The notes beneath the pieces were generated by a model. It was not told where the DNA came from. It ran no database searches and was given only the letters and a program-made list of their open reading frames with translations. A DNA stretch of 33,137 bases from an uncultured Roseburia sp. GTDB taxonomy: Bacteria > Bacillota > Clostridia > Lachnospirales > Lachnospiraceae. The DNA is taken from NCBI GenBank assembly GCA_947062675.1, contig CAMSQM010000033.1, positions 1 through 33,137 of the forward strand, read 5' to 3'. The position numbers were made by a program, and so were the translations under genes. Of this stretch, positions 8,235 through 12,587 are shown piece after piece. Positions within the stretch are counted from its first letter, which is position 1. Each line of letters starts with the position of its first letter.

Positions 8235-9971
8235 TTATGCCGTCTCCGCCGCATCTGCCGGAAACGCCCCGTACTGTGCCATATAAGTGTCATAATAGAG
8301 ACCCTTTTTCCGAAGCAGCTCCTCGTGCGTCCCGCGCTCCGCGATTCTCCCGTCCTCGAGGTAAATAATCTCGTCCGCATGGCGCACCGCCGAGATGCGG
8401 TGTGCGATAATCACTTTCGTCGTGTCGGAAAGCGCGCCCAGCGTTTTCTGAATCTCATGTTCCGTCTCCATGTCGAGCGCTGAGGTGGAATCATCCAGCA
8501 CAAGAACCGGACTGTGCTTCGCCAGTGCGCGCGCTATGCTGATCCGCTGTTTCTGCCCTCCGGAGAGACCGACGCCGCGCTCTCCGATCACGGTCCCGTA
8601 CTGCTCATCCATCTTCTCGATAAAATCCCGCGCCTCTGCATGTTCCGCCGCAAGACGCACCTCCTCAATCGGAAGCTGTCTGCGCTGTCCCATGCGGATA
8701 TTTTCCTCAATCGTATCCGAGAAGAGAAACACGTCCTGCAGCACCACCGCGATGCTGCTGCGCAGCTGCTTTAAGGACAGATCCCGGACATCCGCTCCGT
8801 CCACCTTCACGACGCCCTCCGTCACGTCATAAAACCTCTGCAGCAGATTGATAATCGAGGATTTACCGGAACCGGTGGCCCCCATTATGCCAAGCGTGCT
8901 TCCCGCCGGAACCATAAAGCTGATATCCTTCAGAATCTCCTTTTCCTCCAGCGAAAACGACACATGCTCAAACTCGATCCTTCCCTCCACTTTGTCGAGA
9001 TGTACCGGCTGTTCCCGGTTGCGGATCATCGCCTGCTCTCCGTAAATCTTCCGGATCTTCCGGTAGGATGCGAGCGCCGCAGAGACGTCATTCGTCAGCC
9101 ATCCCAGCATTTCCATCGGCCAGGTACAGTTTCTGCTGTACTCCACAAACGCCACCAGCGCGCCGAGCGTCATCTCACCGTTCATCACAAAAAGCCCGCC
9201 AAGGATCGTTGTGCAGACCGGAAGCGCCTTCCCCACAAACTGGAACAGTGGATAATAGCGCACAAGCACCTTCGACTGTGTAATATTGAGCTCATAATAG
9301 CGGCTGTTGTGGGACAGAAACTTCTCCACCTCGTGCTTCTCCCTCGCAAACGCCTTCACCGTCCGGACGCCGGCAAGGTTTTCCTCCGCGACCGTGGTCA
9401 GCGCGGCATTCTCCTCACTGATCTGCTCATATACCTTATCCAGCTTCCGCTCCATCACAATCGCCACAACGCCGCAGACAATCATTGTAAAGAGCGGCAC
9501 AAGCGCCAGCTTCCAGTTGCGGGCGAACATACAGTAGAGCACAAAACCGGCGTGGATGACGACCTCGATCACGAGCATCCCCACAAAACCGAGCGCATTC
9601 CAGACCCTGTCAACGTCGTCCTTGACCCGCGCCATCAGCTCTCCCGTATTCACATTGTCAAAATAATTCATGGACAGCGTCTGAATATGATCAAACAGAT
9701 CCTTCCGCATCTGCGACCCGATCTTCGACGCAATCCGGTCAAATGAAATCTCCTTGCAGTACCCGAACAGGCACCGTCCGATCCCGACCACCACAATTCC
9801 TGCCAGAAATCTGGTCAGAAGCTCCAGCTTTCCTCCCAGAATTACCTCGTCCACGATATCCTGCGTGATCTTCGGATATACCATATCCAGGACAATCGCA
9901 GCCACCATACAGACGACTGCAAGCAAATATCCCGCCCAGTGGCGTCCGATATACGTGTGTAACTTTTTCAC
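8235..9971 (-). CDS. ABC exporter half-transporter, subunit with degenerate Walker B (BmrC/TM287-like)
   Basis: 578 residues from a GTG at 9971 that has a near-ideal AAAGGAGG six nt upstream; the longer frame from 10007 includes that site and is unlikely. Six membrane helices precede the ATPase domain. Motifs: Walker A GATGSGKSS, canonical signature LSGGQKQRISIARAL, Walker B VLVLDDSTSALD with Asp replacing the catalytic Glu, and a normal H-loop (IIAHRIS). The Asp marks the degenerate ATP site that is completed by the altered LSIGQ of the partner. First gene of the unit, preceded by a long leader with a small ORF and an intrinsic terminator, suggesting attenuation control. Multidrug or lipid export is the usual function of this family; the specific cargo is unknown. 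Confidence 0.9.
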   Translation of the reverse strand: MKKLHTYIGRHWAGYLLAVVCMVAAIVLDMVYPKITQDIVDEVILGGKLELLTRFLAGIVVVGIGRCLFGYCKEISFDRIASKIGSQMRKDLFDHIQTLSMNYFDNVNTGELMARVKDDVDRVWNALGFVGMLVIEVVIHAGFVLYCMFARNWKLALVPLFTMIVCGVVAIVMERKLDKVYEQISEENAALTTVAEENLAGVRTVKAFAREKHEVEKFLSHNSRYYELNITQSKVLVRYYPLFQFVGKALPVCTTILGGLFVMNGEMTLGALVAFVEYSRNCTWPMEMLGWLTNDVSAALASYRKIRKIYGEQAMIRNREQPVHLDKVEGRIEFEHVSFSLEEKEILKDISFMVPAGSTLGIMGATGSGKSSIINLLQRFYDVTEGVVKVDGADVRDLSLKQLRSSIAVVLQDVFLFSDTIEENIRMGQRRQLPIEEVRLAAEHAEARDFIEKMDEQYGTVIGERGVGLSGGQKQRISIARALAKHSPVLVLDDSTSALDMETEHEIQKTLGALSDTTKVIIAHRISAVRHADEIIYLEDGRIAERGTHEELLRKKGLYYDTYMAQYGAFPADAAETA

Positions 9972-10082
9972 AAAAAACCTCCTTTTCCCCTCCCCGGGTA
10001 TCAGCATGTCAGCACATTTCCCTGAAAATCCACATCCCTCTTCCGGCCCTGCGATTCTGGCTGCAACTGCATTTTTACACGC

Positions 10083-10114
10083 AAAAAAGCCCGCGGCTGC
10101 TGATTACCGCGGAC
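10083..10114 (-). terminator. Intrinsic terminator/attenuator in the exporter leader
   Basis: On the minus strand the RNA reads GUCCGCGG, a 10-nt loop, CCGCGGGC, then UUUUUU (10088-10083). The CCGCGG arms are at 10107-10112 and 10091-10096, extended by U-G and G-C pairs. It lies about 120 nt after the small ORF and 111 nt before the exporter start codon, with no complete gene of its own to end apart from the small ORF. That position is typical of a regulatory attenuator. Confidence 0.75.
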
Positions 10115-10235
10115 TGCGCCATTCACTGGAACCGGCTTTGTCAACTGCAGTGCTCTCTGCGGGAAATCCGGTCTCCCTGCAGTATACACCCGGACAGCCT
10201 CCCACTGTCACCGTGCAAAAACACTGCCCCGTCTG

Positions 10236-10349
10236 TCAGGGCTGTCTGACAAAATCCACCGAGGTAATATCATGATTGTTCTTCCTGTTATTCTGTTCTG
10301 CGATCTTTCTTCCACCTGTCAGTCCGGAATTTGTAAAACTTCTCATCAT
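10236..10349 (-). CDS. 37-residue small ORF, possible leader peptide of the ABC exporter
   Basis: Starts at one of two adjacent ATGs (10349 or 10346) after AAGAGAGG and ends with TGA at 10236. The peptide is hydrophilic and basic (begins MMRSFTNSGLTGGRKIAEQ, ends ITSVDFVRQP), with no signal peptide, membrane helix or cysteines. A good sigma-A promoter lies 50 nt upstream. Downstream the RNA can form alternative folds: TGTCAG/CTGACA around the stop codon (10234-10251), or GACAGCC at the ORF end (10246-10240) with GGCTGTC (10199-10193). Then follow the terminator and the exporter genes. In B. subtilis the bmrB leader ORF controls bmrCD by ribosome-mediated attenuation; an equivalent role is my inference. 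I see no sequence resemblance to BmrB that I could vouch for. Confidence 0.6.
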   Translation of the reverse strand: MMRSFTNSGLTGGRKIAEQNNRKNNHDITSVDFVRQP

Positions 10350-10397
10350 TCTTACCTCTCTTTCCTTATTATTCAGTCTCTTAAACTGCATAGCATC

Positions 10398-10427
10398 AGT
10401 ATAGGCACAACGTGCTTCCTTTGTCAA
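10398..10427 (-). promoter_or_regulatory. Sigma-A promoter of the exporter leader
   Basis: Minus strand TTGACA (10427-10422), 18-nt spacer, TATACT (10403-10398). Expected start near 10391, giving a leader of about 420 nt before the first transporter codon. Confidence 0.8.
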
Positions 10428-10549: not shown

Positions 10550-10768
10550 ATGAGCTCATCGAACAGTTCAGGTTCCAACAGCAGCCAGATGGCTGTACCG
10601 CAGGCAAAAGAAGCAATGAATCGTTTTAAGCAGGAAGTCGCAAGTGAGATTGGTGTACCTTTAAAAGAAGGCTACAACGGCGACCTGACCTCTGCACAGG
10701 CAGGCAGCATCGGCGGCGAGATGGTCAAGAAAATGATCATGAAGCAGGAAGAGCAGATGTCCAGATAA
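10550..10768 (+). CDS. Alpha/beta-type small acid-soluble spore protein
   Basis: 72 residues from the ATG at 10550 with GGAGG ahead. After a Ser/Asn-rich N-terminus come the two family signatures: AMNRFKQEVASEIGVPLKEGYNGDLTS-type first block (seen here across residues about 20-45, including the GPR protease cleavage region around SEIGV) and GSIGGEMVKKMI in the second block. These proteins coat spore DNA in the forespore, protecting it from UV and chemicals, and are degraded by GPR at germination to supply amino acids. The gene stands alone between the divergent exporter leader and its own terminator. It shows that the organism belongs to a spore-forming lineage. Confidence 0.93.
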   Translation: MSSSNSSGSNSSQMAVPQAKEAMNRFKQEVASEIGVPLKEGYNGDLTSAQAGSIGGEMVKKMIMKQEEQMSR

Positions 10769-11654: not shown

Positions 11655-12587
11655 ATGGACTGGACGACGGATTTAAAGAATGCAATCGGGTATATGGAAG
11701 AAAATCTCCTCGCGGACATCGGTGTTCAGGAAGTGGCGGATGCGGTACATATCTCGCCTTTCTATTTCCACAGGGGCTTTAAAATCGTGACAGGTTACTC
11801 CGTCAGTGAATACTTAAGAAACCGCAGGCTGTACCTGGCAGGGCTGGACATTCTGAAGAAAAACCGTCAGGAAACGGAAAATCAGTACACCTGTGCAGAG
11901 GCCGGAAATGAAAAAATTATTGATCTGGCACACAAATACGGGTATAACACTCCGGAAAGCTTTACCAGAGCGTTTATACGTTTTCACGGCCTGTCCCCCC
12001 TGCAGCTTCGGAAACATCCACATCAGATCAGGGTCTTTCTTCCGCTGCATGTGGAAATTATAGTAAAAGGAGGCAGACAAATGGAATTTACAATTGAAAA
12101 AAGAGATGCGATGAGGATGATCGGGTTTAAAAAGACTATTTCCCACGAAACTTCTTATCAGGATATCCCCGCATTCTGGAACTGGTTCTGTCAGAAGTAC
12201 TGCGGCGATGCGGCGTGTGAGCCGGGAGAGGAGAAGATACGGCAGACCATCGCAGAGTGCATGGTGGGAGAGTTCGGCGTCTGTATGGAAGAAGAGACGA
12301 ACACAGAGAGTTTCTGCTATTATATCGCGGGCTCATATCAGGGCAACGAGGTGCCGGAAGGAATGACGGTTTTTGAGATTCCCGCAGGCGAATGGGCAGA
12401 ATTTAAATGCACCGGGAGCATACCGGATGCGCTGCAGACAGTCAACACCCGGATTTTCAACGAATGGCTTCCCGGAAACAGGGAGTATGAAATAGCGTTT
12501 CACGCCAGTATCGAATGGTATTCCAAAGGCGACACCAGAAGCGACCGTTATGAAAGCGGCATCTGGATCCCAGTGAAGCGTCTGTAA
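11655..12587 (+). CDS. AraC family transcriptional regulator with GyrI-like effector domain
   Basis: 310 residues. The N-terminal 110 residues are an AraC-type DNA-binding domain with two helix-turn-helix units: IGVQEVADAVHISPFYFHRGFK and, with the usual spacing, IIDLAHKYGYNTPESFTRAFIRFHGLSP. An unusual stretch between the two (about 60-90, KKNRQETENQYTCAEAGNEK) is slightly longer than normal. From about residue 140 comes a GyrI/BacR-like effector-binding domain (MEFTIEKRDAMRMIGFKKTIS ... IPAGEWAEFKCTG ... HASIEWYS), which in relatives such as Rob and BltR-type proteins binds small hydrophobic molecules. The start is set by GGGAGGAAG. It is divergent from the DJ-1 gene; its targets are unknown, and the nearby exporter is one candidate. 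Confidence 0.9.
   Translation: MDWTTDLKNAIGYMEENLLADIGVQEVADAVHISPFYFHRGFKIVTGYSVSEYLRNRRLYLAGLDILKKNRQETENQYTCAEAGNEKIIDLAHKYGYNTPESFTRAFIRFHGLSPLQLRKHPHQIRVFLPLHVEIIVKGGRQMEFTIEKRDAMRMIGFKKTISHETSYQDIPAFWNWFCQKYCGDAACEPGEEKIRQTIAECMVGEFGVCMEEETNTESFCYYIAGSYQGNEVPEGMTVFEIPAGEWAEFKCTGSIPDALQTVNTRIFNEWLPGNREYEIAFHASIEWYSKGDTRSDRYESGIWIPVKRL

Follow-up and report, generated by a model that had tools for sequence, protein, structure and literature searches.

A leader in front of a Lachnospiraceae ABC exporter as a candidate portable attenuator that would sense ribosomes arrested at the start codon

We identified a putative transcription attenuator in a 33,137-nucleotide (nt) stretch of DNA from an uncultured Roseburia sp. 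(assembly GCA_947062675.1, contig CAMSQM010000033.1; Lachnospiraceae), here called the window, in the leader of a heterodimeric ATP-binding cassette (ABC) exporter. The leader contains a short open reading frame (ORF), and late in this ORF lies the heptamer UUACCUC, referred to as the hub, which would have two mutually exclusive partners. Pairing with the Shine-Dalgarno (SD) sequence of the ORF itself would give an anti-antiterminator (AAT), and pairing with the 5' arm of the downstream intrinsic terminator would give an antiterminator. Comparison of relatives together with RNA folding makes it probable, in our judgement, that the leader is a portable transcription attenuator which senses ribosomes arrested at or just after initiation, with the hub switching between the SD and the terminator arm. 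Anatomy, conservation, covariation and the dependence of the folds on ribosome position were computed; whether the leader ORF is translated, whether its RNA is terminated and read through in vivo, what induces the switch and what the exporter transports are matters of inference. Leader and exporter are located on the minus strand, and coordinates are positions in the window:

10427-10398, minus strand: sigma-A-type promoter, TTGACA-18-TATACT, 11 of 12 consensus matches
10358-10352, minus strand: SD core GAGGUAA of the leader ORF, also the 5' strand of the AAT in the fold without ribosome
10349-10236, minus strand: leader ORF of 37 codons, ATG at 10349 and tandem ATG at 10346; in relatives at the same position and with an SD
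10267-10261, minus strand: hub UUACCUC, an anti-SD within the leader ORF common to AAT and antiterminator, from folds, conservation and covariation
10268-10254, minus strand: 5' strand of the antiterminator, AUUACC (10268-10263) and GUGGAU (10259-10254), from the minimum free energy (MFE) structure with the start masked and the RNA ending at 10102
10114-10103, minus strand: 3' strand of the antiterminator, which is the 5' arm of the terminator, GUCCGC (10114-10109) and GGUAAU (10108-10103), from folding
10115-10083, minus strand: intrinsic terminator, stem 10115-10106 with 10097-10088 and U tract 10088-10083, from sequence and fold
9971-8235, minus strand: exporter subunit 1, GTG start at 9971, degenerate Walker B; Pfam ABC_membrane and ABC_tran, motifs by eye
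8196-6406, minus strand: exporter subunit 2, LILDEA and LSIGQ; Pfam ABC_membrane and ABC_tran, motifs

In the proposed mechanism, the outcome depends on the position of the ribosome on the leader. Without a ribosome, the SD would capture the hub and the terminator would form. During normal translation the ribosome would leave the SD, cross the hub and stop slightly past it, at a median distance of 16 nt in relatives, and again the terminator would form. A ribosome arrested at the start codon or within about the first four to five codons would cover the SD without having reached the hub, and the freed hub could then pair with the terminator arm as it emerges from RNA polymerase, so that the exporter would be transcribed. 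Since a start-arrested ribosome would cover the SD and spare the hub, the switch should respond to ribosomes arrested during initiation or early elongation. The predicted signal would be, for example, ribosome-targeting antibiotics, such as drugs blocking the first peptide bonds.

A reading of the DNA made without database searches (hereafter the sequence-only reading) had listed a sigma-A promoter, a 37-codon ORF with its own ribosome binding site, a U-tailed hairpin and the start of a heterodimeric exporter in series. All these parts are real; the RNA pairings proposed along with them are not the conserved ones. Before the leader ORF lies the SD region GAGAGGTAAG, and the frame of the ORF stays open further upstream, as far as 10529. 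The terminator, whose T run reaches 10083, begins 118 nt past the stop codon of the leader ORF, and AGGAGG precedes the exporter start at 9971; the series ahead of the exporter genes thus consists of a short ORF with an SD and then an intrinsic terminator. Subunit 1 has the signature LSGGQ and LVLDDS at Walker B (by eye; a regular expression for an intact Walker B gave no match), and subunit 2 has LILDEA at Walker B and the signature LSIGQ (by eye; a regular expression for an intact signature gave no match). Judged from these motifs, the complementary degeneration represents the asymmetry of a heterodimeric exporter. Both subunits match many ABCB-type exporters of known structure, among them, not at the top, B. 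subtilis YheI and YheH (BmrC and BmrD). Motifs and matches identify the target as a heterodimeric ABC exporter of the BmrCD type.

Folding of the window leader indicated that its RNA is more stable than 100 of 100 shuffled sequences (z -3.78). Without a ribosome, GAGGUAA pairs perfectly with the hub with a probability (P) of 0.99. With SD and start masked and the RNA ending at 10102, the MFE structure pairs AUUACC with GGUAAU and extends by GUGGAU with GUCCGC, occupying the 5' arm of the terminator. In this folding model the window has three exclusive attenuator states, namely AAT, antiterminator and terminator.

The leader is conserved before exporter orthologues. Because the exporter protein served as query, the leaders were not selected by motif. 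The exporter was matched in 39 of 62 genomes of the window's genus (E <= 1e-150) and in 42 of 200 genomes of its family, each of another genus (E <= 1e-120), with the window's genome included in both counts. Examination of 72 upstream regions (30 genus loci with the window, 29 family loci and 13 from a further set), three of which run into a contig end (L019, L039, L179), left 69 readable regions. A leader is present before 65 of these 69 exporters: 57 were recognized by script (ORF, hub and terminator) and eight by eye (L014, behind an inserted gene, L029, L032, L038, L178, L188, L195 and L196). One further region, L205, is ambiguous. An earlier impression that the leader family is rare arose because a whole-leader DNA search of 98 genomes found few places, nine in eight genomes besides the window, all of them short stretches and two (L009, L010) unrelated by eye; the exporter query changed this picture.

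Both helices covary in these leaders, with the SD-hub changes confined to few branches. The SD-hub table contained 57 rows, with the hub chosen by a rule blind to the SD (the choice in L175 was made by hand and that in L189 by a looser fallback); the 15 other loci of the 72 were the three cut by contig ends, the eight found by eye, three without leader and L205. Four rows were mis-picked (hub in L015, L024 and L197, terminator in L171); they were kept in the 57-row table and dropped from the 53-row folding, tree and 135-row analyses. The first SD-hub pair is U-A in 36 rows, U-G in 11, C-G in 10 and C-A in none (Fisher 8e-6). For the third pair the counts are A-U 39, G-C 10, A-C 2, G-U 1, A-A 4 and A-G 1 (Fisher 4e-8, computed on the first four kinds). 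At the fourth position, Watson-Crick pairs number 27 vs 15.5 expected (permutation fraction 0.0004) and standard pairs 28 vs 20.2 expected (0.0062). Because SD and hub covary, the SD GGCAG goes with the hub CUGCC and other leaders combine GGUAA with UUACC; L022 combines GGGGUAA with UUACCCC. The duplex energy of the hub with its own SD was -11.85 kcal/mol, vs -9.88 with permuted partners (a value this low in 0 of 2000 permutations) and -5.11 when the hub was shuffled. The corresponding values in the same rows for hub and terminator arm were -11.48, -9.55 (0 of 2000 as low) and -7.19 kcal/mol, and this duplex reaches -8 kcal/mol in 46 of the 57 rows. In L189, the hub region GCCUCCGGAAA seems by eye to be a better pairing partner for the 3' terminator arm than for the 5' one.

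The hub-arm helix was also analyzed in a larger set. A pattern in which only SD, ATG and TTACCTC were fixed yielded at least 120 loci in a scan of named genomes, and in 82 of the 120 listed loci the script recognized both a short ORF and a terminator; among the remaining 38, some lie inside long genes of other phyla and some are real-looking leaders in which the script missed the terminator. These 82 leaders and the 53 exporter leaders, partly overlapping, make up 135 rows, and in 72 of these GGYRR occurs in the arm or the loop of the terminator. The outer hub-arm pair, formed by the base after GGYRR and the base before the hub, is a standard pair in 56 of the 72 rows vs 34.9 expected (0 of 5000 permutations), with A-U in 35, U-A in 12, U-G in five, G-C in two and G-U in two, and 16 unpaired. 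An antiterminator exclusive with the terminator is backed by this covariation, that of SD and hub being seen on few branches and that of hub and arm being counted without a tree.

The sequence-only reading had placed bmrB-like attenuation in two other pairings near the end of the ORF, TGTCAG/CTGACA and GACAGCC/GGCTGTC. The strings exist in the window; a complete pair was found in none of eight relatives checked, with single halves in L016, L018, L022 and L025. Over seven ribosome states and seven RNA ends, their mean pairing P in the window was 0.0-0.51 and 0.0-0.01, respectively. In relatives the ORF with its SD keeps its position, and the conserved pairings are 10358-10352 with 10267-10261 and 10268-10263 with 10108-10103. 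Attenuation through a leader ORF stands on the comparative evidence, since ORF, exclusive helices and terminator recur across many genera, and the stems named for it do not.

To relate the switch to ribosome position, the 53 leaders were folded up to the terminator loop with the footprint of a ribosome masked, and P of the antiterminator was calculated for each position. Without a ribosome the median was 0.01. With the P site at the AUG it rose to 0.96 (43 of 53 leaders above 0.5), and it was 0.76 at codon 4 (34 of 53) and 0.03 at codon 7 (11 of 53). With the ribosome on the hub, the median was 0.00 and no leader exceeded 0.5. It was also 0.00 at the last sense codon, and arrest at the end of the ORF, where the sequence-only reading had located the switch, is predicted to terminate. 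The mean P of the AAT was 0.69 without ribosome vs 0.00 at the AUG, so in these folds the AAT is broken by a ribosome arrested on the upstream ORF (uORF), a feature of the vmlR/hflXr type. In the model, a start-codon ribosome favors the antiterminator, yet the separation is imperfect in some leaders.

Several observations weigh against a switch of this design. Among the 69 readable regions, L166, L182 and L203 have no leader. Without a ribosome 16 of 53 leaders exceed an antiterminator P of 0.5, as do 10 of 53 at the last sense codon, and with the ribosome 24 nt before the hub the median is still 0.31 (20 of 53 above 0.5). The window itself behaves weakly: in the 53-leader run its antiterminator P at the AUG is just 0.15; with the RNA ending at 10098 the enforced antiterminator lies 2.1 kcal/mol above the free MFE; and AUUACC:GGUAAU reaches P 0.19-0.49 with the ribosome at the AUG or codon 4 and RNA ends 10102-10096, a weak effect, and 0.00 in the other five ribosome states. 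Its outer helix GUGGAU:GUCCGC forms without ribosome too (0.33-0.91 over the same RNA ends). On the exporter tree (quick method, 53 rows), the SD-hub states change only 3, 7, 1 and 3 times, and a lineage-paired test gave at most two starred pairs, too few for significance; because related rows were treated as independent and few branches change, the Fisher and permutation values overstate the association. The 135 rows hold near-duplicates, with 124 distinct peptides. Finally, in the full-length RNA the terminator wins in every ribosome state (mean 0.92-0.95), which would require the antiterminator to act kinetically, during RNA synthesis.

The leader peptide was considered as an alternative sensor. 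A late I/F/V-T-S motif could stall drug-bound ribosomes near the end of the ORF, as in erm-type leaders, and the hub is indeed read in the ITS frame in 67 of the 82 leaders among the pattern loci listed, so that the peptide motif is common. In the other 15, however, the hub lies in another frame and encodes other peptides such as LPR or YLG (one of these, L144, is a mis-picked start), and the hub heptamer has complements in two further conserved elements. The base after TTACCTC is G in 64 of these 82 leaders and the next base G in 55, and the stop codon lies a median of 16 nt past the hub (10th-90th percentile 13-25). The remainder of the peptide is little conserved: residues 2-8 vary over the 124 distinct peptides, with Ile the most frequent residue 2 (33%). 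The folds also argue against this explanation, as the antiterminator is at 0.00 in all 53 leaders with a ribosome on the hub. We regard nascent-peptide arrest as unlikely; judged from the sequences, the conserved item is the nucleotides and not the peptide.

A simpler explanation is that the terminator is a plain one with constitutive read-through and that the pairing of the ORF with its SD merely sets a low level of leader translation. This would agree with the terminator being the most stable state under all masks at full length, and with a strong hub-arm duplex in 46 of 57 rows and not in all. A plain terminator does not need the covariation of hub and terminator arm, and we give this explanation a low probability, somewhat below that of peptide arrest. 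A marginally lower one goes to an amino-acid starvation attenuator, in which, as in trp-type leaders, the ribosome would halt at codons whose amino acid is in short supply. The three-helix logic is the same, and Asn is more frequent in the peptides than any other residue (10% overall, 19-23% at residues 6-8). On the other hand, no run of one regulatory residue is common to the variable peptides, and the targets are exporters and genes acting on ribosome or RNA, not genes of amino-acid biosynthesis. A ligand-binding riboswitch or T-box, to which a structured, terminator-containing leader of a transporter gene might point, is highly improbable, as conservation falls on an SD, an ORF and the anti-SD of that ORF, and an Rfam scan of the window with models including T-box, riboswitches and amino-acid leaders gave no match at gathering score and, at a weak level, just unrelated models (E 0.54-7.9).

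The proposed sensor of start-codon arrest is not confined to exporters. By our own count of the titles of 80 listed pattern loci, 65 belong to Clostridia, four are named only as bacterium, Bacillota or Firmicutes, and 11 belong to Bacilli or other phyla. Roseburia porci (L101) is a cultured relative that has the leader. A downstream ORF was called for 101 of the 120 listed loci, and 56 of these are exporter subunit 1 (>250 bits). Of the 45 other downstream ORFs, 19 were subjected to a Pfam search together with L044 from the family scan. Behind the leader this identified RsgA (L062, L110, L161), a GNAT-RsgA fusion (L107), two-domain ABC ATPases (L049, L165), the RNA 2'-phosphotransferase KptA (L075, L131, 121 nt past the hub), ABC_ATPase (L044), ABC_tran (L055, L091, L078, L122), GNAT (L105), a permease 420 nt away (L106) and an esterase-like ORF (L059). 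An NFACT (RqcH-like) ORF 529 nt downstream of the leader in L109 is a candidate target. The downstream ORFs of L092, L084 and L127 gave no Pfam family. L062 and L107 pass TIGR00157 (RsgA); the nearest NCBIfam model to L165 is a ribosome-protection ABC-F (347.8 bits, under the cut-off of 380), and L109 matches the RqcH and EfbA models, both under cut-off. By sequence likeness only, L057, L114 and L115 also resemble GNAT-RsgA fusions behind the leader. In L014/L245 (G046) and L092, a gene is inserted between leader and exporter, and the inserted-gene protein of L092 has no Pfam match.

Genome scans gave a view of the spread of the pattern. In the window's genus, the strict pattern was found in 26 of 62 genomes at 28 places, with one match in the reversed control, and in the window's own genome a looser pattern occurs at two places, one of which is this leader. 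Across 397 genomes of the family, five had a match, all five places with SD and ATG; this count is weak by itself because the reversed control gave three matches, and the gap range of the pattern used was too short for the longer ORF of the window itself. In 196 Clostridia genomes the strict pattern gave three matches (two in the window's family and one without start codon) vs two in the control. Seven distant exporter loci lie outside the family, and six were read, L226 with about 80 nt of upstream sequence being left out. L224, L225 and L227, from one distant Bacillota family, have the SD GGUAGGG with the hub CCCUGCC, and the hub with a terminator arm, which at the sequence level is the same logic in other letters. 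In the upstream regions of L228, L229 and L230, among the six read, the switch logic was not seen. L228 and L230 have a tiny ORF (MMIKGVLK), and by eye the end of this ORF, GTGTTCTTAAA, is complementary to TTTAAGAACAC about 150 nt downstream; this leader is possibly a different attenuator.

The leader thus differs from the single new instance that the sequence-only reading had suggested: it is one of a family with several kinds of target genes. Induction of individual resistance genes by antibiotic-stalled ribosomes is known from a few model Firmicutes; in the present leaders, logic of this kind would form a module that is used repeatedly within one family of gut bacteria. We tentatively suggest, with somewhat less than even confidence, that this leader represents the type case of a large family of portable RNA sensors in Lachnospiraceae, with look-alikes of other sequence elsewhere in Bacillota, in which an ORF-internal anti-SD measures a ribosome frozen on its own SD and start codon. 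One sensor before unrelated genes (ABC exporters, ABC-F-like ATPases, RsgA, GNAT-RsgA, KptA, RqcH-like NFACT) would define a ribosome-arrest regulon at the RNA level, with RsgA, KptA and the RqcH-like protein as candidate members of a translation-block response. The signature is simple to read: an SD, a complementary stretch late in the ORF, and a terminator arm that competes for this stretch. It provides a rule by which such switches can be found even where the peptide is not conserved. It would predict which genes commensals raise upon a translation block and which arrest position counts, namely the start codon and not the end of the ORF. The interest lies in the design of the sensor and its reuse before different genes. 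No description of this leader family was found in the open-access literature searched, including the available parts of PMC6851288 and PMC11109978.

Adjacent to the leader, a divergent ORF (10550-10768, plus strand, beginning MSSSNSSGSNSSQMAVPQAKEAMNRFKQEV) resembles a small acid-soluble spore protein, and a similar spore-protein-like ORF adjoins the leader in several relatives by eye. An AraC-type regulator with a GyrI-like/Cass2 small-molecule-binding domain is located near the exporter (11655-12587, plus strand).

Trp-type attenuators consist of exclusive helices 1:2, 2:3 and 3:4 that are read by ribosome position. The leader shares this scheme of exclusive helices; its region 1 is the SD, so that arrest at the start would be read and not regulatory codons. 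For the published systems, the comparison follows the available parts of the papers cited. In B. subtilis, bmrB likewise combines a leader ORF with an intrinsic terminator before a heterodimeric ABC exporter (bmrCD), and translation of the leader is required for drug induction; trp-type attenuators are mentioned in the discussion of that work (PMC4191407). A predicted anti-anti-terminator is common to both leaders, its role being left unclear for bmrB, and here the SD of the ORF forms one strand of it. The terminator lies inside the ORF in bmrB, whereas here it follows the stop codon, and in this feature the two differ (PMC4191407). An anti-antiterminator is named for vmlR and hflXr as well (PMC9226507; PMC6310831). 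B. subtilis vmlR likewise has a short ORF, located within an anti-antiterminator hairpin, and an arrested ribosome frees the antiterminator; its ORF has three codons (MIN) and its SD is single-stranded before the hairpin, whereas the present leader has its SD as the paired strand and an ORF of 37 codons, and it precedes an exporter (PMC9226507). The hflXr leader (rli80) of Listeria monocytogenes shows ribosome-dependent attenuation with anti-anti-terminator, anti-terminator and terminator regions too, but its 14-codon ORF carries an RLR arrest motif, whereas the present leaders have no common arrest motif and arrest is predicted at the start (PMC6310831). The cplR leader of Clostridioides difficile, according to a figure legend, similarly has a uORF, a terminator and an anti-SD element, and it is induced by drugs acting just after initiation; there the uORF has three codons and the terminator sequesters the SD of cplR, whereas here the anti-SD within the ORF faces the SD of that same ORF (PMC10201436). 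Likened by description of mechanism, the leader would fit in principle into the class formed by bmrB, vmlR, hflXr and cplR.

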